Shown one piece after another: positions 3,120 to 33,162 of a stretch of 33,427 bases of DNA. The DNA lies in the IMG/VR virus record IMGVR_UViG_3300037508_000224, positions 1 through 33,427 of that record. One strand, given 5' to 3'. A program made the position numbers and the translations under genes. The stretch's first letter is position 1; every line of letters begins with the position of its first letter. This stretch comes from a virus. Under the pieces are notes generated by a model, which saw only the letters and a list, made by a program, of their open reading frames with translations, was not told the origin of the DNA and did not search any database.

Positions 3120-3129
3120 GATGTATAGT
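3101..3129 (+). promoter_or_regulatory. Early-type sigma70-like promoter for the VWA/AAA+ pair
   Basis: TTGCTT at 3101-3106 and TATAGT at 3124-3129 are separated by exactly 17 bases. The -35 lies in the arm and loop of the terminator hairpin. Read from sequence only. Confidence 0.5.
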
Positions 3130-3152
3130 TGATTCATCAACGAAAGAGACCG

Positions 3153-5294
3153 ATGTTCAACGCCGAAGTCAAGGGCAATCTCGCTCGCCTTCTTGCTACC
3201 GAAAACCTGATCGTAGAGCACCGCCCTGTTGAGACGGCGATGTTTAACGTGAAGGATCGTGTGCTGACCCTGCCTATGTGGGAGAAAGCATCTGCCAACG
3301 TATACGATATGCTGGTTGGGCATGAAGTCGGTCACGCTCTGTATACCCCCGACAAATGGGGTGATGATTATGGCATTCCTCAATCCTACCTGAATGTGTG
3401 TGAGGATGCTCGTATTGAGAAACTGATGAAACGTAAGTTTCCTGGTCTTGCTCGTAACTTCTATGCTGGTTACAAAGAGCTACAAGATGATGATTTCTTC
3501 TGTATTGGTGACCGTGAGTTAGATTCTTATGCTCTGATTGACCGTGTGAATCTTTACTTTAAGATTGGCATTCATGCTGGTGAAGTGTTTGCTTGGAATA
3601 CTGAAGAGAAGATGCTGGTGGATGAGCTTGCTAATGCCGAAACCTTTGAGCAAGTTGTAGAAGTTGCTCGTAAGATTCTTCAATATACTCAAGAACAGGA
3701 GCAACAGCAGGTTGTAGAAGCACAACCCGACCTTCAGCAATCTACTCAAGGTGGGGGTGATTCCACTCAAGGTGAGGGTGATCAAGGCGAAGGCGAGCAA
3801 CCGCAAGAAGTGTCTGGCAATGGTAATCAAACTCAAGGTGACGGTGCTGATGCTAATCAACCTCAAGGTGCGGGTGAAGGAGCTACTTCTGGTGGTCAAC
3901 ACAATACACTTGAGTCTGAAACTGACAAGGCATTCACTGAGAATCAGAAACAACTGATTAGTGACCACCCTCGTTCTCATCATCTCAACTATATTGAGTT
4001 GCCTGATTTGAAAGTAGAAAAATTTGTTATTACTAATAAAGAAGTTCAAGAAGATTGTAATCAAACTTTTGGCGAGCAATCGCAATCTCTCTTTAGGGAA
4101 GTTGACAAACAGTATCTTACTTTTCGTAGTGAAGCTCAACGTGAGGTTAACTACCTTGTGAAAGAGTTTGAAATGCGTAAGTCGGCAGATCAGTATGCCC
4201 GTGCATCTACTGCCAAGACTGGTATCCTTGATACGGCACTTCTTCACACTTACAAGTGGAATGAAGATGTATTCAAGAAAATCAATGTGGTGCCTGACGG
4301 TAAGAATCACGGTTTGATTTTTGTTCTCGATTGGTCTGGTTCGATGGGCAACATTCTTCAGGATACTGCTAAGCAACTTCTCAACCTTGCTTGGTTCTGT
4401 AAGAAAGTTCAGATTCCTTTTGACATCTATGCCTTTACCAATGATTATTGGTATCACAAATCCTACGATTATCAGACTCAAACTCGCAACAAATCTCCTC
4501 GCCTTCAGACTCCTAAGGCTGGTCAAGTTAAACTGTGTGACCATTTCAATATGCTGAATCTTGTTAGCAGCAATGGGCGAAACGGTAAAGACCTTGAAGC
4601 ACAACTTAAAAACTTCTGGCGTCTTGTTGTTGGCAACGGTAGTTACTCTGGTTACTCTATGCCTGCTGGATATAGTCTTTCTGGCACTCCTCTTCATGAA
4701 GCAGCAATTTCTCTGACCGCACTTATCCCCGACTTTCAGAAGCGTAACAAGGTTCAAAAGACTAACGTTATTATTTTGACTGACGGCGAATCTTCCAATA
4801 TCAATTACTACACCGATCAGACTTACGGTAGCCGTCTTGGCACCAGCTATGTGAGTAATGATTGTATTCTGCGTGACCGTAAAACTGGTCGCGTATATCC
4901 TCGCTTTAGTGATGGAGGTTACTATGGTAACTCGGATCTTATCACCAAAGTATTTCTCCAGAATGTGCGTGATCGTTTCTCGGATGTAAACCTGATTGGT
5001 ATTCGTCTGGTGAATGGTCGTGGTCTTAACACCACCTACAATGCTGAAGATTGTAAAACCGATTGGAATGAAGTTCAGAAGCAATGGAAGAAAACTAAGT
5101 CTGCTGAGCTGGTTGAGCATCTTGGTTATCAGGCACTCTATCTGATGGGCACCGATTCGCTATCTGCGAATAGCGAATTTGAAGTTGCTGAAGATGCTTC
5201 TGAGAAAGAAATCGGCAAGGCATTCACCACGGCACTTGCTAAGAAAGGCGTCAATAAGAAAATGCTGACTTCCTTTGCCACACTCATTAGTTAA
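3153..5294 (+). CDS. HExxH metallopeptidase-like plus VWA-domain protein (CobT-like partner of the next gene)
   Basis: This is a large two-part protein of 713 residues from the ATG at 3153; a TTG at 3129 would add eight. Near the N terminus a zinc-metallopeptidase motif HEVGH (57-61) is followed about 25 residues later by NVCEDARIE, the gluzincin arrangement in which a downstream glutamate is the third zinc ligand. A Gln/Gly-rich low-complexity linker comes next. The C-terminal half is a von Willebrand A domain with a complete MIDAS start, DWSGS at 393-397, and a later ILTDGES segment. It is paired with a MoxR/CobS-like AAA+ ATPase. VWA-MoxR pairs act as ATP-driven remodelling or metal-insertion machines, and CobT-CobS is one example. 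The substrate is unknown. Confidence 0.85.
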   Translation: MFNAEVKGNLARLLATENLIVEHRPVETAMFNVKDRVLTLPMWEKASANVYDMLVGHEVGHALYTPDKWGDDYGIPQSYLNVCEDARIEKLMKRKFPGLARNFYAGYKELQDDDFFCIGDRELDSYALIDRVNLYFKIGIHAGEVFAWNTEEKMLVDELANAETFEQVVEVARKILQYTQEQEQQQVVEAQPDLQQSTQGGGDSTQGEGDQGEGEQPQEVSGNGNQTQGDGADANQPQGAGEGATSGGQHNTLESETDKAFTENQKQLISDHPRSHHLNYIELPDLKVEKFVITNKEVQEDCNQTFGEQSQSLFREVDKQYLTFRSEAQREVNYLVKEFEMRKSADQYARASTAKTGILDTALLHTYKWNEDVFKKINVVPDGKNHGLIFVLDWSGSMGNILQDTAKQLLNLAWFCKKVQIPFDIYAFTNDYWYHKSYDYQTQTRNKSPRLQTPKAGQVKLCDHFNMLNLVSSNGRNGKDLEAQLKNFWRLVVGNGSYSGYSMPAGYSLSGTPLHEAAISLTALIPDFQKRNKVQKTNVIILTDGESSNINYYTDQTYGSRLGTSYVSNDCILRDRKTGRVYPRFSDGGYYGNSDLITKVFLQNVRDRFSDVNLIGIRLVNGRGLNTTYNAEDCKTDWNEVQKQWKKTKSAELVEHLGYQALYLMGTDSLSANSEFEVAEDASEKEIGKAFTTALAKKGVNKKMLTSFATLIS

Positions 5295-10208: not shown

Positions 10209-10215
10209 TTTTGTA

Positions 10216-10238
10216 GGGAGTTCCACACTCCCTTTTTT
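10216..10238 (+). terminator. Terminator after regA
   Basis: GGGAGT (10216-10221) pairs with ACTCCC (10227-10232) across a five-base loop, followed by six T. It closes the clamp operon. Confidence 0.9.
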
Positions 10239-10313: not shown

Positions 10314-10757
10314 ATGACAAACGCATATACTTGGGATGTCTATTCCCCATTTGGAGTTGGATTAGAAAGCATTTTCAACAGACTGGATGCCATGTCTGGG
10401 CACAATACTAACTATCCACCTTACAACATCATCAAAAATGATAGCTCTAACTATGAGATTGAAGTCGCTCTTGCTGGATTTAAACCAGAAGAGATTGAAG
10501 TCTCTACAGAACAAAGCATTCTCAGAGTTGCCTCTAAGTCTGAGAAACGAGATACTGAAAGAACATACCTCCACAAAGGTCTCTCCAAACGTTCCTTCAA
10601 TCACTCCTGGCAACTATCAGAAGATGTCAGAGTATCCTCTGTAGATTTTGCTGATGGATTACTAACAATCTCATTGGAAAAAATTATCCCAGAGCATCAA
10701 AAGCGCACGATGTATAAAATTGGATCTGGTAGTAAGCAACTACTTACGGAAGGATAA
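10314..10757 (+). CDS. hsp20: Small heat-shock protein Hsp20
   Basis: The product has 147 residues with an alpha-crystallin domain in the middle: NYEIEVALAGFKPEEIEV, an LRVASK strand, then the FNHSWQLSEDVRV and DGLLTISLEK strands. Hsp20 holds unfolding proteins in ATP-independent oligomers. The gene is a common cyanophage core gene and is thought to protect phage or photosynthetic proteins during infection. A strong ribosome site, AAGGAG, lies 9 bases before the ATG. The gene stands as its own unit between two terminators. Confidence 0.92.
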   Translation: MTNAYTWDVYSPFGVGLESIFNRLDAMSGHNTNYPPYNIIKNDSSNYEIEVALAGFKPEEIEVSTEQSILRVASKSEKRDTERTYLHKGLSKRSFNHSWQLSEDVRVSSVDFADGLLTISLEKIIPEHQKRTMYKIGSGSKQLLTEG

Positions 10758-10760
10758 ATA
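10754..10760 (+). promoter_or_regulatory. Late promoter (ATAAATA) after hsp20
   Basis: ATAAATA overlaps the end of hsp20. By T4 spacing the start would be near 10766, the first G of a run of hairpins. Confidence 0.55.
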
Positions 10761-10765
10761 GACGC

Positions 10766-10836
10766 GGGGCAACCCAAATATCGTCGGCACGATGGGCGAG
10801 ACTGGCAACTATCAGTCTTGCCCTATTTTCTTTTTT
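10766..10836 (+). ncRNA. Candidate late small RNA with three consecutive hairpins
   Basis: Three hairpins stand side by side. First is GGG-GCAA-CCC (10766-10775), a GNRA tetraloop. Second is ATCGT-CGGC-ACGAT (10780-10793), a perfect 5-bp stem. Third is GGGCGAGACTG paired with CAGTCTTGCCC (10794-10804 and 10813-10823, one G-T pair), followed by T-rich sequence. A late promoter core at 10754-10760 would begin transcription at the first G of the first hairpin, giving about 70 nt ending at an intrinsic terminator. No coding potential is seen. It could instead be only a terminator region; the precise alignment of start and structure argues for an RNA product. Confidence 0.4.
10794..10836 (+). terminator. 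Strong terminator downstream of hsp20
   Basis: An 11-bp stem, GGGCGAGACTG with CAGTCTTGCCC, around an 8-base loop, followed by TATTTTCTTTTTT. The 3' arm ends in TTGCCC, the -35 of the next promoter. Confidence 0.9.
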
Positions 10837-10846
10837 GTGCTATAAT
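10818..10846 (+). promoter_or_regulatory. Early-type promoter for the Sm-like gene pair
   Basis: TTGCCC at 10818-10823 and TATAAT at 10841-10846 are 17 bases apart. An AGGAGA ribosome site and the ATG at 10870 follow. Confidence 0.65.
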
Positions 10847-10869: not shown

Positions 10870-11304
10870 ATGATTCCGAGAGTTATGATTTTAAATTCTG
10901 GAGAAAGAATAATCTCTGGAGTTTCTGAAGTAACTGATGAAAATGGTCAGGGTATTTGTTTACTTCTTAAGTGTCCGTATATTCTAGATATGGCACCAAC
11001 AGGAGACTATAATACAGATGGCAATCCATCTCAATTTTCTATTAACTTTACCAAGTGGTTTGCGTATTCTAAATCAGAAGAATTTCGTATTCCATATACT
11101 TCGGTAGTTGCTTTGGGTGAACCAGAAGATGGAATTCTTGATGTATACATGAAAAAATTTGGAGATAAATTAAATGACAACAACACCGTACCAACCAGTG
11201 ATTCAAGTGATAGTTCTGAAGGATCGGGATTATCTAATAGCGGAGATAGAAGAAAGGGAAGAAAGTCCAGAGTGTCTTCTGACGAATCCGTATCGGATTC
11301 TTGA
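10870..11304 (+). CDS. Sm-like-fold small protein with serine-rich C-terminal tail
   Basis: The product has 144 residues. Residues 1-100 (starting PRVMILNSGERIISGV, then CLLLKCPYILDM, then FRIPYTSVVALGEP) have the strand pattern and leading LNSGERI motif of the small Sm/Hfq-like beta-barrel proteins seen in marine phages; this is a by-eye resemblance. The last 45 residues are low-complexity, rich in Ser, Asp, Gly and Lys, and read through the start of the next gene in a different frame. AGGAGA precedes the ATG. A sequence paralogue follows directly. An RNA-binding role is possible but not shown. Confidence 0.75.
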   Translation: MIPRVMILNSGERIISGVSEVTDENGQGICLLLKCPYILDMAPTGDYNTDGNPSQFSINFTKWFAYSKSEEFRIPYTSVVALGEPEDGILDVYMKKFGDKLNDNNTVPTSDSSDSSEGSGLSNSGDRRKGRKSRVSSDESVSDS

Positions 11305-11563
11305 TTTAACTTATTGGGATCATTCCAACGTAGATTATAAAAGCGTTCGTAATCCTGATGCTCTCTTTATTAGTGAAAGCACGGATAAAGAAATTGATAG
11401 GGAGGGTAATGAAATAACAGTTACTCAGTCTGATTATATTCTTTTGGAGAAATTTCCCAAGTATACAAATCAAACACAAATCTACATGCGAGCAGATGAC
11501 ATCCTCACCATTTGCGATCCATCGTATTCTGTGTTAGAATACTACCAGAAGACCCTGGGTTGA
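11174..11563 (+). CDS. Second Sm-like paralogue overlapping the first gene by 131 bases
   Basis: The product has 129 residues. It is alignable with the preceding protein: VIVLKDRDYLIAEI with VMILNSGERIISGV, CLLTNPYRILDL with CLLLKCPYILDM, and a shared C-terminal pattern ending YYQKTLG and VYMKKFG. The start ATG at 11174 has GGAG nine bases upstream. The first 131 bases overlap the serine-rich tail of the preceding ORF in another frame. It ends 6 bases before the gp43 start. The function is unknown. Confidence 0.78.
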   Translation: MTTTPYQPVIQVIVLKDRDYLIAEIEEREESPECLLTNPYRILDLTYWDHSNVDYKSVRNPDALFISESTDKEIDREGNEITVTQSDYILLEKFPKYTNQTQIYMRADDILTICDPSYSVLEYYQKTLG

Positions 11564-27117: not shown

Positions 27118-28279
27118 ACTAACCGAAAACACACCTAGCGTAGAAGGTATGACGGTATTCAACACCAAACATGTTGATATTAAAAAGCAACCGATGTTCT
27201 TCGGTGCTCCTTTGGGCATTCAGAGATATGATACCTACAAGTATCCTATCTTCGATAAACTAACTCAACAGCAACTCGGATACTTTTGGAGACCTGAAGA
27301 GGTTTCTCTTCAGAAGGATCGTGCTGACTATGCTACCCTTCGCCCAGAGCAGAAGCATATCTATACTTCTAATTTGAAGTATCAGATTATGCTTGACTCT
27401 GTGCAGGGTCGTGGTCCAGGCATGGCATTTATTCCTTATTGTTCTCTCCCAGAGTTGGAGTCAGCGATGACTATCTGGGAAACGATGGAGATGATTCACT
27501 CCCGCTCTTATACATACATTATTAAGAATATCTATTCTGATCCATCAGAAGTATTTGATACTATCCTTGATGACCAGAATATCCTTGATAGGGCGAAGAG
27601 TGTAACTGAAGCATACGATGACTTCATTCAAGCAGCACAAGATTACTCGTCGGGTAATCAGTGGCAACATCAACTTGAAGGTGTGCCTGCTGCGAAGGAG
27701 ACTCTCTATGAGTTGAAGCGTAAACTCTATCGTGCCGTAGTCAACGTTAACATCTTAGAGGGGATTAGATTTTATGTTTCGTTCGCGTGCTCGTTCGCTT
27801 TTGGCGAACTTAAACTTATGGAGGGATCCGCTAAAATTATCTCTCTCATCGCCAGAGACGAAAGCCAGCATCTTGTCCTTACGCAAAACATTATCAAAAA
27901 CTGGCTTAATGGAGATGACCCAGACATTCTTCAAATCGCTAAAGAAGAAGAAGCGTGGACAGTAGAGCAGTTTAAAAAGACGGTTGACGAAGAGAAAGCA
28001 TGGGCACAGTATCTATTCAAGGATGGTAGCATCATTGGATTGAATGATAAACTACTCAACTCTTACGTTGAGTATATCGCCAACCGTCGCATGAGAGCGA
28101 TTGGTTTGAAGCCTGTGTTTGATACTCCTATGTCAAATAATCCACTGCCTTGGACTCAGCATTGGTTATCTTCTAAGGGTCTTCAAGTTGCCCCACAGGA
28201 AACAGAGGTTGAGAGTTATGTCATTGGAGGCATTAAACAAGATGTTAAGAAAGATACTTTCGCTGGTTTTAAACTGTGA
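27098..28279 (+). CDS. nrdB: Ribonucleotide reductase small subunit NrdB (class Ia)
   Basis: This is the beta subunit, with ferritin-like helices holding the diiron-tyrosyl radical. IHSRSY contains a histidine ligand and the radical tyrosine, and PMFFG with FWRPEEV are family landmarks. From the GTG at 27098 it is 393 residues and has a strong AGGAGG ribosome site 6 bases upstream. An ATG at 27149 (376 residues, starting MTVFNTKHVD) aligns better with T4 NrdB's start but has no usable ribosome site. I kept the GTG and record the uncertainty. It overlaps nrdA. Confidence 0.93.
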   Translation: MTAVRFKLTENTPSVEGMTVFNTKHVDIKKQPMFFGAPLGIQRYDTYKYPIFDKLTQQQLGYFWRPEEVSLQKDRADYATLRPEQKHIYTSNLKYQIMLDSVQGRGPGMAFIPYCSLPELESAMTIWETMEMIHSRSYTYIIKNIYSDPSEVFDTILDDQNILDRAKSVTEAYDDFIQAAQDYSSGNQWQHQLEGVPAAKETLYELKRKLYRAVVNVNILEGIRFYVSFACSFAFGELKLMEGSAKIISLIARDESQHLVLTQNIIKNWLNGDDPDILQIAKEEEAWTVEQFKKTVDEEKAWAQYLFKDGSIIGLNDKLLNSYVEYIANRRMRAIGLKPVFDTPMSNNPLPWTQHWLSSKGLQVAPQETEVESYVIGGIKQDVKKDTFAGFKL

Positions 28280-31415: not shown

Positions 31416-31487
31416 GGGCTCATAGTTAAGCGGATATAACTACCGCCTTCTAAGCGGTCGTCCCTGGTTCGATTCCAGGTGAGCCTG
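31416..31487 (+). tRNA. tRNA-Arg (anticodon UCU)
   Basis: The acceptor arm GGGCTCA pairs with TGAGCCT (one G-U). The anticodon stem ACCGC/GCGGT holds the loop CTTCTAA with TCT at 31449-31451, and the T arm is CCTGG-TTCGATT-CCAGG. No CCA is encoded. It reads AGA/AGG codons, which are frequent in the AT-rich phage genes here. Confidence 0.93.
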
Positions 31488-31527: not shown

Positions 31528-31836
31528 ATGGGAAAACCTTATAAACTGATGACCGAAGATGAGAAATCATCTTTCAATCAGTATTGTATTCAAAGATGGC
31601 AACAACGCAAACTTGATGCTGTAGAATACAAAGGTGGAAAGTGCGAACGTTGTGGGTATGATAAATACTCAGAGGTTTTAGAGTTCCACCATCTCGACCC
31701 TACACAAAAAGAAGCAGCTTGGAATAAGATGCGTCTTTGGAGTTGGGAAAAGATAATGACAGAACTAGACAAATGTGCTATACTTTGTGCTAACTGTCAT
31801 CGTGAAGTTCACGTAGAACTTAGGCAGGGCGATTAG
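31528..31836 (+). CDS. HNH endonuclease between two tRNA genes
   Basis: The product has 102 residues. It has a zinc pair CERCG near 39-43, the HNH core LEFHHLDP near 51-58 and the CANCHREVH end near 87-95. Four Cys form a structural zinc site and HH...H the catalytic part. It is probably a free-standing homing-type or nicking enzyme, common beside phage tRNA clusters. The last three codons and stop lie in the first 10 bases of tRNA-Val, so the two genes overlap. Confidence 0.85.
   Translation: MGKPYKLMTEDEKSSFNQYCIQRWQQRKLDAVEYKGGKCERCGYDKYSEVLEFHHLDPTQKEAAWNKMRLWSWEKIMTELDKCAILCANCHREVHVELRQGD
31756..31784 (+). promoter_or_regulatory. Possible promoter for tRNA-Val inside the HNH gene
   Basis: ATGACA (31756-31761), 17 bases, TATACT (31779-31784). 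The start would be about 35 bases before the tRNA. Weak evidence within coding sequence. Confidence 0.3.
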
Positions 31837-31898
31837 CTCAGCGGTAGAGCTCTTGCCTTACAAGCAAGCTGTCACTGGTTCGATTCCAGTATCGCCCA
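31827..31898 (+). tRNA. tRNA-Val (anticodon UAC)
   Basis: The acceptor arm GGGCGAT pairs perfectly with ATCGCCC. The anticodon stem CTTGC/GCAAG holds the loop CTTACAA with anticodon TAC, and the T arm is ACTGG-TTCGATT-CCAGT. The first 10 bases overlap the end of the HNH gene. Confidence 0.94.
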
Positions 31899-33073: not shown

Positions 33074-33162
33074 GGAAGTGTGGCTGAGAGGTCTAAAGCA
33101 GCGGTTTGCTAAACCGCCGATGTCTTTATGGGCATCCGTTGGTTCGAATCCAACCACTTCCG
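33074..33162 (+). tRNA. tRNA-Ser (anticodon GCU)
   Basis: The acceptor arm GGAAGTG pairs with CACTTCC. The anticodon stem GCGGT/ACCGC holds the loop TTGCTAA with anticodon GCT. A long variable arm, GATGTC/GGCATC, is the type expected for tRNA-Ser, and the T arm is GTTGG-TTCGAAT-CCAAC. No CCA is encoded. It reads AGC/AGU codons. Confidence 0.92.

Follow-up and report, generated by a model that had tools for sequence, protein, structure and literature searches.

We describe a predicted small RNA gene of cyanophages that comparison of viral genomes supports well as a single-copy gene conserved across Kyanoviridae. It likely encodes a late, trans-acting antisense RNA that is directed against the 5S rRNA of the host and that may limit host ribosome production. 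That pairing with 5S is the function of the RNA appears very probable from the comparisons below; an inhibitory outcome for the host 5S or ribosome is proposed more tentatively.

The locus and its predicted RNA

The window, which is the whole 33,427-nucleotide stretch of viral DNA analysed here, is assigned to a T4-like cyanomyovirus. Its gene order is regA, hsp20, two Sm-like genes, the DNA polymerase gene gp43, uvsX and a helicase gene, and the polymerase is 72.5 % identical to that of S-PM2. Elsewhere in the window two long ORFs overlap on opposite strands (3129-5294, plus strand, 721 aa; 3519-5120, minus strand, 533 aa) and three tRNA matches are located near the right end (31416-31487, 31827-31898 and 33074-33162).

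A sequence-only reading of the window had proposed a late promoter box followed by three back-to-back hairpins and a T tract, with no ORF at the locus. All of these features are present (Table 1). The minimum-energy fold of 10766-10836 consists of precisely the three hairpins (-29.1 kcal/mol), and among the ORFs listed for the window none of at least 60 aa crosses the locus. The energy of 10754-10840 lies 3.8 standard deviations under that of dinucleotide shuffles, with 0 of 200 shuffles equally good, and the third hairpin tops the terminator ranking for the first 20 kb of the window. A second strong terminator, AGGGAGTTCCACACTCCCTTTTTT, is found 3' of regA at 10215-10233. No Rfam 15 family scores above its gathering threshold at the element.

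The box is of the NATAAATA type, the late promoter reported for S-PM2 (PMC2984593), and would place the transcription start 6 nt downstream. On its own the box is weak evidence, because ATAAATA occurs 11 times in the window compared to 7.3 expected. At the other end of the locus, promoter and terminator overlap in the manner of PeSL (promoter early stem-loop) cassettes, since the -35 of the next gene, TTGACA in many relatives, sits in the 3' arm of the terminator.

Table 1. Features at and beside the locus in the window
Feature	Position	Strand	Remarks
T4-type late promoter box GATAAATA	10753..10760	+	From sequence; ATAAATA is 10754-10760 and shares bases with the stop codon of hsp20
Predicted small RNA, about 70 nt	10766..10836	+	Putative start counted from the box, putative end at the T tract
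Hairpin 1, GGG-GCAA-CCC	10766..10775	+	Counterpart of GGGCTACCC in other phages, which is antisense to 5S helix IV
Antisense core CCCAAATATCGTCGGC	10773..10788	+	Complementary without mismatch over 16 nt to 5S nt 69-84 of genome G148, host class GCGCCGACGATATTTGGG
12-nt segment TATCGTCGGCAC, consensus TATCGTCGSCGC	10779..10790	+	From sequence comparison
Hairpin 2, ATCGT-CGGC-ACGAT	10780..10793	+	Private to the window and near-identical contigs
Terminator hairpin, conserved apex CTGGCAACTATCAG, T-rich tail	10794..10836	+	Stem 10794-10823
Early-type promoter of the next gene	10818..10846	+	-35 TTGCCC, 17-nt spacer, extended -10 tgcTATAAT
Sm/LSm-fold protein gene (phrog_431, DUF6561)	10870..11304	+	Neighbour; possible partner of the RNA

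A conserved single-copy element

A DNA-level search of isolated phages with the locus gave no match, the sequences being too diverged, and relatives were therefore gathered via the neighbouring proteins. What is conserved in the gap 3' of hsp20 in these relatives is a linear segment, TATCGTCG(G/C/T)CGC, flanked by a late box (ATAAATA) on its 5' side and a terminator on its 3' side. We collected 160 distinct elements with this combination of box, antisense segment and terminator, and a pattern scan finds the same architecture in more than 100 contigs. TAAATA lies 3-22 nt upstream of the segment in 160 out of 160 elements, a set for which the box was part of the definition, and it is also present at matches found without requiring a box. 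Since the spacing between box and segment varies from 3 to 22 nt, the 12-mer is not a promoter element.

Whole-genome searches found exactly one copy per record in 12 of 16 phage records. With a covariance model, 25 of 34 records gave one strong match each (28-74 bits), the next best match reaching at most 17 bits. T4, P-SSM2, P-SSM4, P-HM2, S-SSM7, S-TIM5 and S-CRM01 have no strong match to this model, and because several cyanomyoviruses are without one we consider the element common and not universal. A match at 28277 in S-CRM01 lacks the hairpin and was attributed to chance, as was a set of further scan matches without hairpin. Most of the unique elements (126 of 166) are located between hsp20 and a Sm-like gene, while 12 of the 166 lie 3' of hli genes, for example in S-PM2, Syn9 and S-RSM4.

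Of the proposal of a stable late small RNA, the comparison supports well a candidate gene that has a late promoter and a terminator to itself, both predicted from sequence and conservation, but the three hairpins do not hold as its functional description. The inner terminator stem covaries and an insert of the hairpin 1 type is found in a subset (31 of 160 elements), whereas hairpin 2 exists solely in near-identical copies; other relatives keep TATCGTCGGCGC without the closing ACGAT. A conserved three-hairpin RNA is ruled out by the lack of conservation of hairpin 2.

The segment is better conserved than the terminator and persists where the 3' hairpin has been replaced. Some elements (L473, L475, L478, L483, L501, L502, L529, L536, L544, L548 and L555) keep the box and the segment and have another 3' hairpin with the apex GACAAAGACC. 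Others (L127, L129, L142, L143 and L156) have a second hairpin, the terminator, downstream of the conserved TGGCAAAATCCA hairpin; the apex may therefore do more than serve termination.

We also looked for the 17-mer of the antisense CCMAATATCGTCGNCGC in viral contigs with no box or hairpin required. Out of 84 distinct new places, 54 combine a late box with the usual apex, and at 13 more the box is accompanied by a different hairpin or end; the remaining 17 are without box and look like chance matches. As judged from these comparisons, the invariant core of the element is the box plus the antisense segment.

Complementarity to host 5S rRNA

The 12-mer had been identified by its conservation before any target was known. 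Its exact complements in 14 host genomes amount to 11 sites, 10 of which are located in 5S rRNA genes of picocyanobacteria, each rrn operon having a single site (Synechococcus WH7803 has two); the eleventh is in an apparent coding sequence of Cyanobium CH-040. The sequence-only reading had suggested a regulator and left its target open, and the evidence points to one partner, the host 5S rRNA. No convincing homolog of the RNA was found in host genomes, where the short matches of the model include the 5S site itself.

By our estimate chance alone would yield a match of 12 nt somewhere in 5S about once per phage genome per strand, and it is therefore the extension of the complementarity that matters. 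Overall the complementarity spans 17-25 nt. Colinear complementarity to 5S extends over 18 nt for the phage sequence ..CCCAAATATCGTCG(C/G)CGC and, when elements are compared with known host 5S, 30 of 169 unique elements pair at 18 out of 18 positions and 101 at 17 out of 18. Complete pairing of the 12-mer is found for 159 of the 169 elements, a count that is partly circular because the elements were recognised by the 12-mer.

In elements carrying GGGCTACCC or GGCTACCCCC the antisense copy runs on through 5S helix IV. Duplex prediction gives 25 pairs with 5S nt 67-92 and a single bulge for one of these elements (L472), with L478 and L544 alike, while an element with no hairpin 1 (L102) has 17 nt paired including G.U. 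The CCC of hairpin 1 in the window is itself part of the antisense core, and the first 36 nt of the window RNA are predicted to pair with the 5S of host genome G148 at -48.5 kcal/mol, against -27.5 kcal/mol (sd 3.1) for shuffles, with 0 of 1000 as good. The margin is smaller for elements without hairpin 1, for which 1-13 of 1000 shuffles are as good (1 for Syn9, 12 for L380). The length and colinearity of the antisense match, including helix IV, carry most weight in the argument for 5S as the predicted target.

In the predicted folds of relatives the pairing segment is accessible, as would be required of a trans-acting antisense small RNA. Its mean unpaired probability is 0.82-0.99 in seven out of nine relatives and 0.73 and 0.60 in the other two, compared to 0.47 in the window. 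Base 10789 of the window copy is an A, which is off consensus and a predicted mismatch to 5S. Because of this mismatch and because hairpin 2 partly masks the segment, the window copy may be weaker or gated.

Two other pairings were considered and dropped. A 9-nt match to 16S rRNA fits the C variant only, compared to the 12-25 nt obtained with 5S, and a pairing of the apex UGGCA with the 5S 3' end (UGCCA) is broken by apex variants.

Variation of the segment with host 5S

We sampled 251 Cyanobiaceae genomes, 144 of which had a match, and found the 5S target triplets ACG, AAG, AAA, ATG and ACA with a search pattern in which the third triplet base was held fixed. The host base facing position 9 of the 12-mer is G or C in the same sample. 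Viral contigs were scanned with the central triplet left free and, beyond the consensus CGT, contain TGT (9 distinct elements), CTT (4), CAT (3), TTT (1) and AGT (2); no element in these scans was changed solely at the third triplet position.

All five host triplets have a complement among the phages, so that changes on the two sides compensate with the exception of AGT and of position 9 in four isolates. Elements with CAT also have C opposite the G of the matching 5S, and the variants give their most favourable predicted duplex energies with hosts whose 5S matches or nearly matches. A change from C to T at position 4, 7, 9 or 10 is compatible with G.U pairing. Among 15 isolates, 11 have C or T at position 9, and either base pairs with G-type 5S. 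The other four, S-PM2, S-RSM4, S-RIM32 and S-RIM8, have a G there, which is mismatched with the G-type 5S present in marine hosts (WH7803, for example).

The AGT elements, TATAGTCG, are L434 (2899-2950, minus strand), L448 and L449. No matching 5S was found for them in 400 Cyanobiaceae genomes, and we therefore predict a host, as yet unseen, whose 5S contains GCGSCGACTATA. Taken alone the triplet argument is modest, with P of about 0.004 under a broad null and about 0.2 under a null of single steps only (our own estimates).

Proposed function and alternatives

We hypothesize that the phage late sigma factor (gp55-type) initiates transcription at ATAAATA late in infection and that the RNA ends at its own terminator. 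The 5' half of the RNA would then pair with 5S nt 67-84 approximately, and up to nt 92 where hairpin 1 holds the helix IV complement. In the general bacterial 5S fold this target corresponds to loop A, a strand of helix V and a strand of loop E, which are expected to be buried once 5S is in the ribosome, and the pairing partner in the cell would be newly made or free 5S rRNA. Pairing may keep 5S from folding or from joining the 50S, or may expose it to decay, and host ribosome production would be limited late in infection as an outcome. In its full form, a host-tuned phage RNA that captures new 5S and stops further 50S subunits from being made, possibly helped by a phage Sm-like protein as chaperone, this mechanism is possible and is offered with reserve.

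The chaperone is only a lead, and it comes from the neighbouring genes. Two consecutive genes between hsp20 and gp43 (10870-11304 and 11174-11563) belong to one Sm/LSm-fold family (DUF6561, PF20198), and the first has a high-confidence predicted structure that matches PDB 3by7.

Alternatively the RNA may pair with 5S without inhibition, and instead stabilise or chaperone free 5S, park or modify ribosomes, or dock a phage protein such as the Sm-like one. The pairing evidence applies equally to this reading, as does the position of the 126 elements that adjoin a gene for a protein with the Sm/LSm fold. However, a duplex of 17-25 nt should force helix V and loop E open, a disruptive effect, and the Sm-like gene is not adjacent to the element in S-PM2 or Syn9. 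We consider pairing without inhibition unlikely.

It is far less probable that the locus is only a PeSL-like terminator/promoter cassette separating hsp20 from the gene that follows, with a 12-mer that has no function in RNA. Cassettes of this kind are known from T4-like phages (papers cited in PMC4503421) and a terminator with an overlapping early-type promoter does occur here, but a multi-copy PeSL cassette is rejected because there is one copy per genome and not the similar copies, many to a genome, by which such cassettes mediate shuffling. In addition the segment outlasts the replaced 3' hairpin, is conserved beyond the terminator and tracks host 5S.

We give similarly little credence to a late small RNA with host or phage mRNA targets, for which the 5S match would be shared ancestry or coincidence. 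Most known base-pairing small RNAs act on mRNA, and an open 5' segment followed by a terminator is their usual layout. Yet the exact complements in hosts are nearly all in 5S, the 16 phage records searched contain no exact 11-nt complement of the segment, and the antisense continues through helix IV. Least plausible of all is that the segment acts on rrn DNA and not on 5S RNA, whether by forming R-loops, as a guide RNA or as a site of recombination: rrn operons are conserved and often multi-copy, but changes compatible with G.U pairs and an antisense version of a 5S hairpin are what an RNA target would lead one to expect, and the element, in its various positions, has no effector gene linked to it.

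Significance and comparison with known systems

An antisense RNA against host 5S, if confirmed, would be a viral RNA aimed at ribosome biogenesis, and phage control of host ribosome assembly by RNA becomes directly testable. The element is widespread in abundant aquatic viruses and, because its variation follows host 5S, may help to infer from sequence which hosts uncultured cyanophages infect. It also provides an RNA partner candidate to seek near the long-unexplained Sm-like proteins of these phages. The literature searched, from which subscription papers are mostly absent so that absence is not proof, contains no phage antisense RNA to 5S and no phage RNA aimed at rRNA; the term rRNA does not occur in a 2025 review of phage small RNAs.

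An antisense RNA has been reported for this phage group: CfrI of cyanophage S-PM2, of about 225 nt, is antisense to the phage's own psbA and homing endonuclease gene (Millard et al. 2010, described in PMC2984593 and PMC12197685). The RNA proposed here resembles CfrI, which is expressed in infection, in being an antisense RNA of a T4-like cyanophage, but is a predicted stand-alone RNA of about 50-75 nt with complementarity to host 5S rRNA. Rfam also holds RNAs from cyanophages, namely wcaG, manA and glnA (PMC12197685). These are likewise conserved cyanophage non-coding RNAs, whereas the element matches no Rfam 15 family.

The PeSL cassettes of T4-like phages, reportedly the subject of work by Arbiol (2010) and Comeau (2014), share with the element an intergenic terminator stem-loop and a following early promoter. 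The element differs from them in its one copy per genome, the late box ahead of it and the conserved antisense segment; we know of no such segment in PeSLs.

Trans-acting small RNAs of bacteria, for example those of the Hfq type, have their own promoter, an open 5' seed and a U-tailed terminator hairpin. The predicted RNA has the same layout of promoter, 5' pairing segment and terminator and is often encoded beside a Sm-fold gene, but its putative target is a structural rRNA and not an mRNA, and its gene is viral. Pairing with rRNA through short segments is a property of the C/D and H/ACA guide RNAs of archaea and eukaryotes, to which the predicted RNA would add a case with a viral gene, a bacterial host and 5S as the target.
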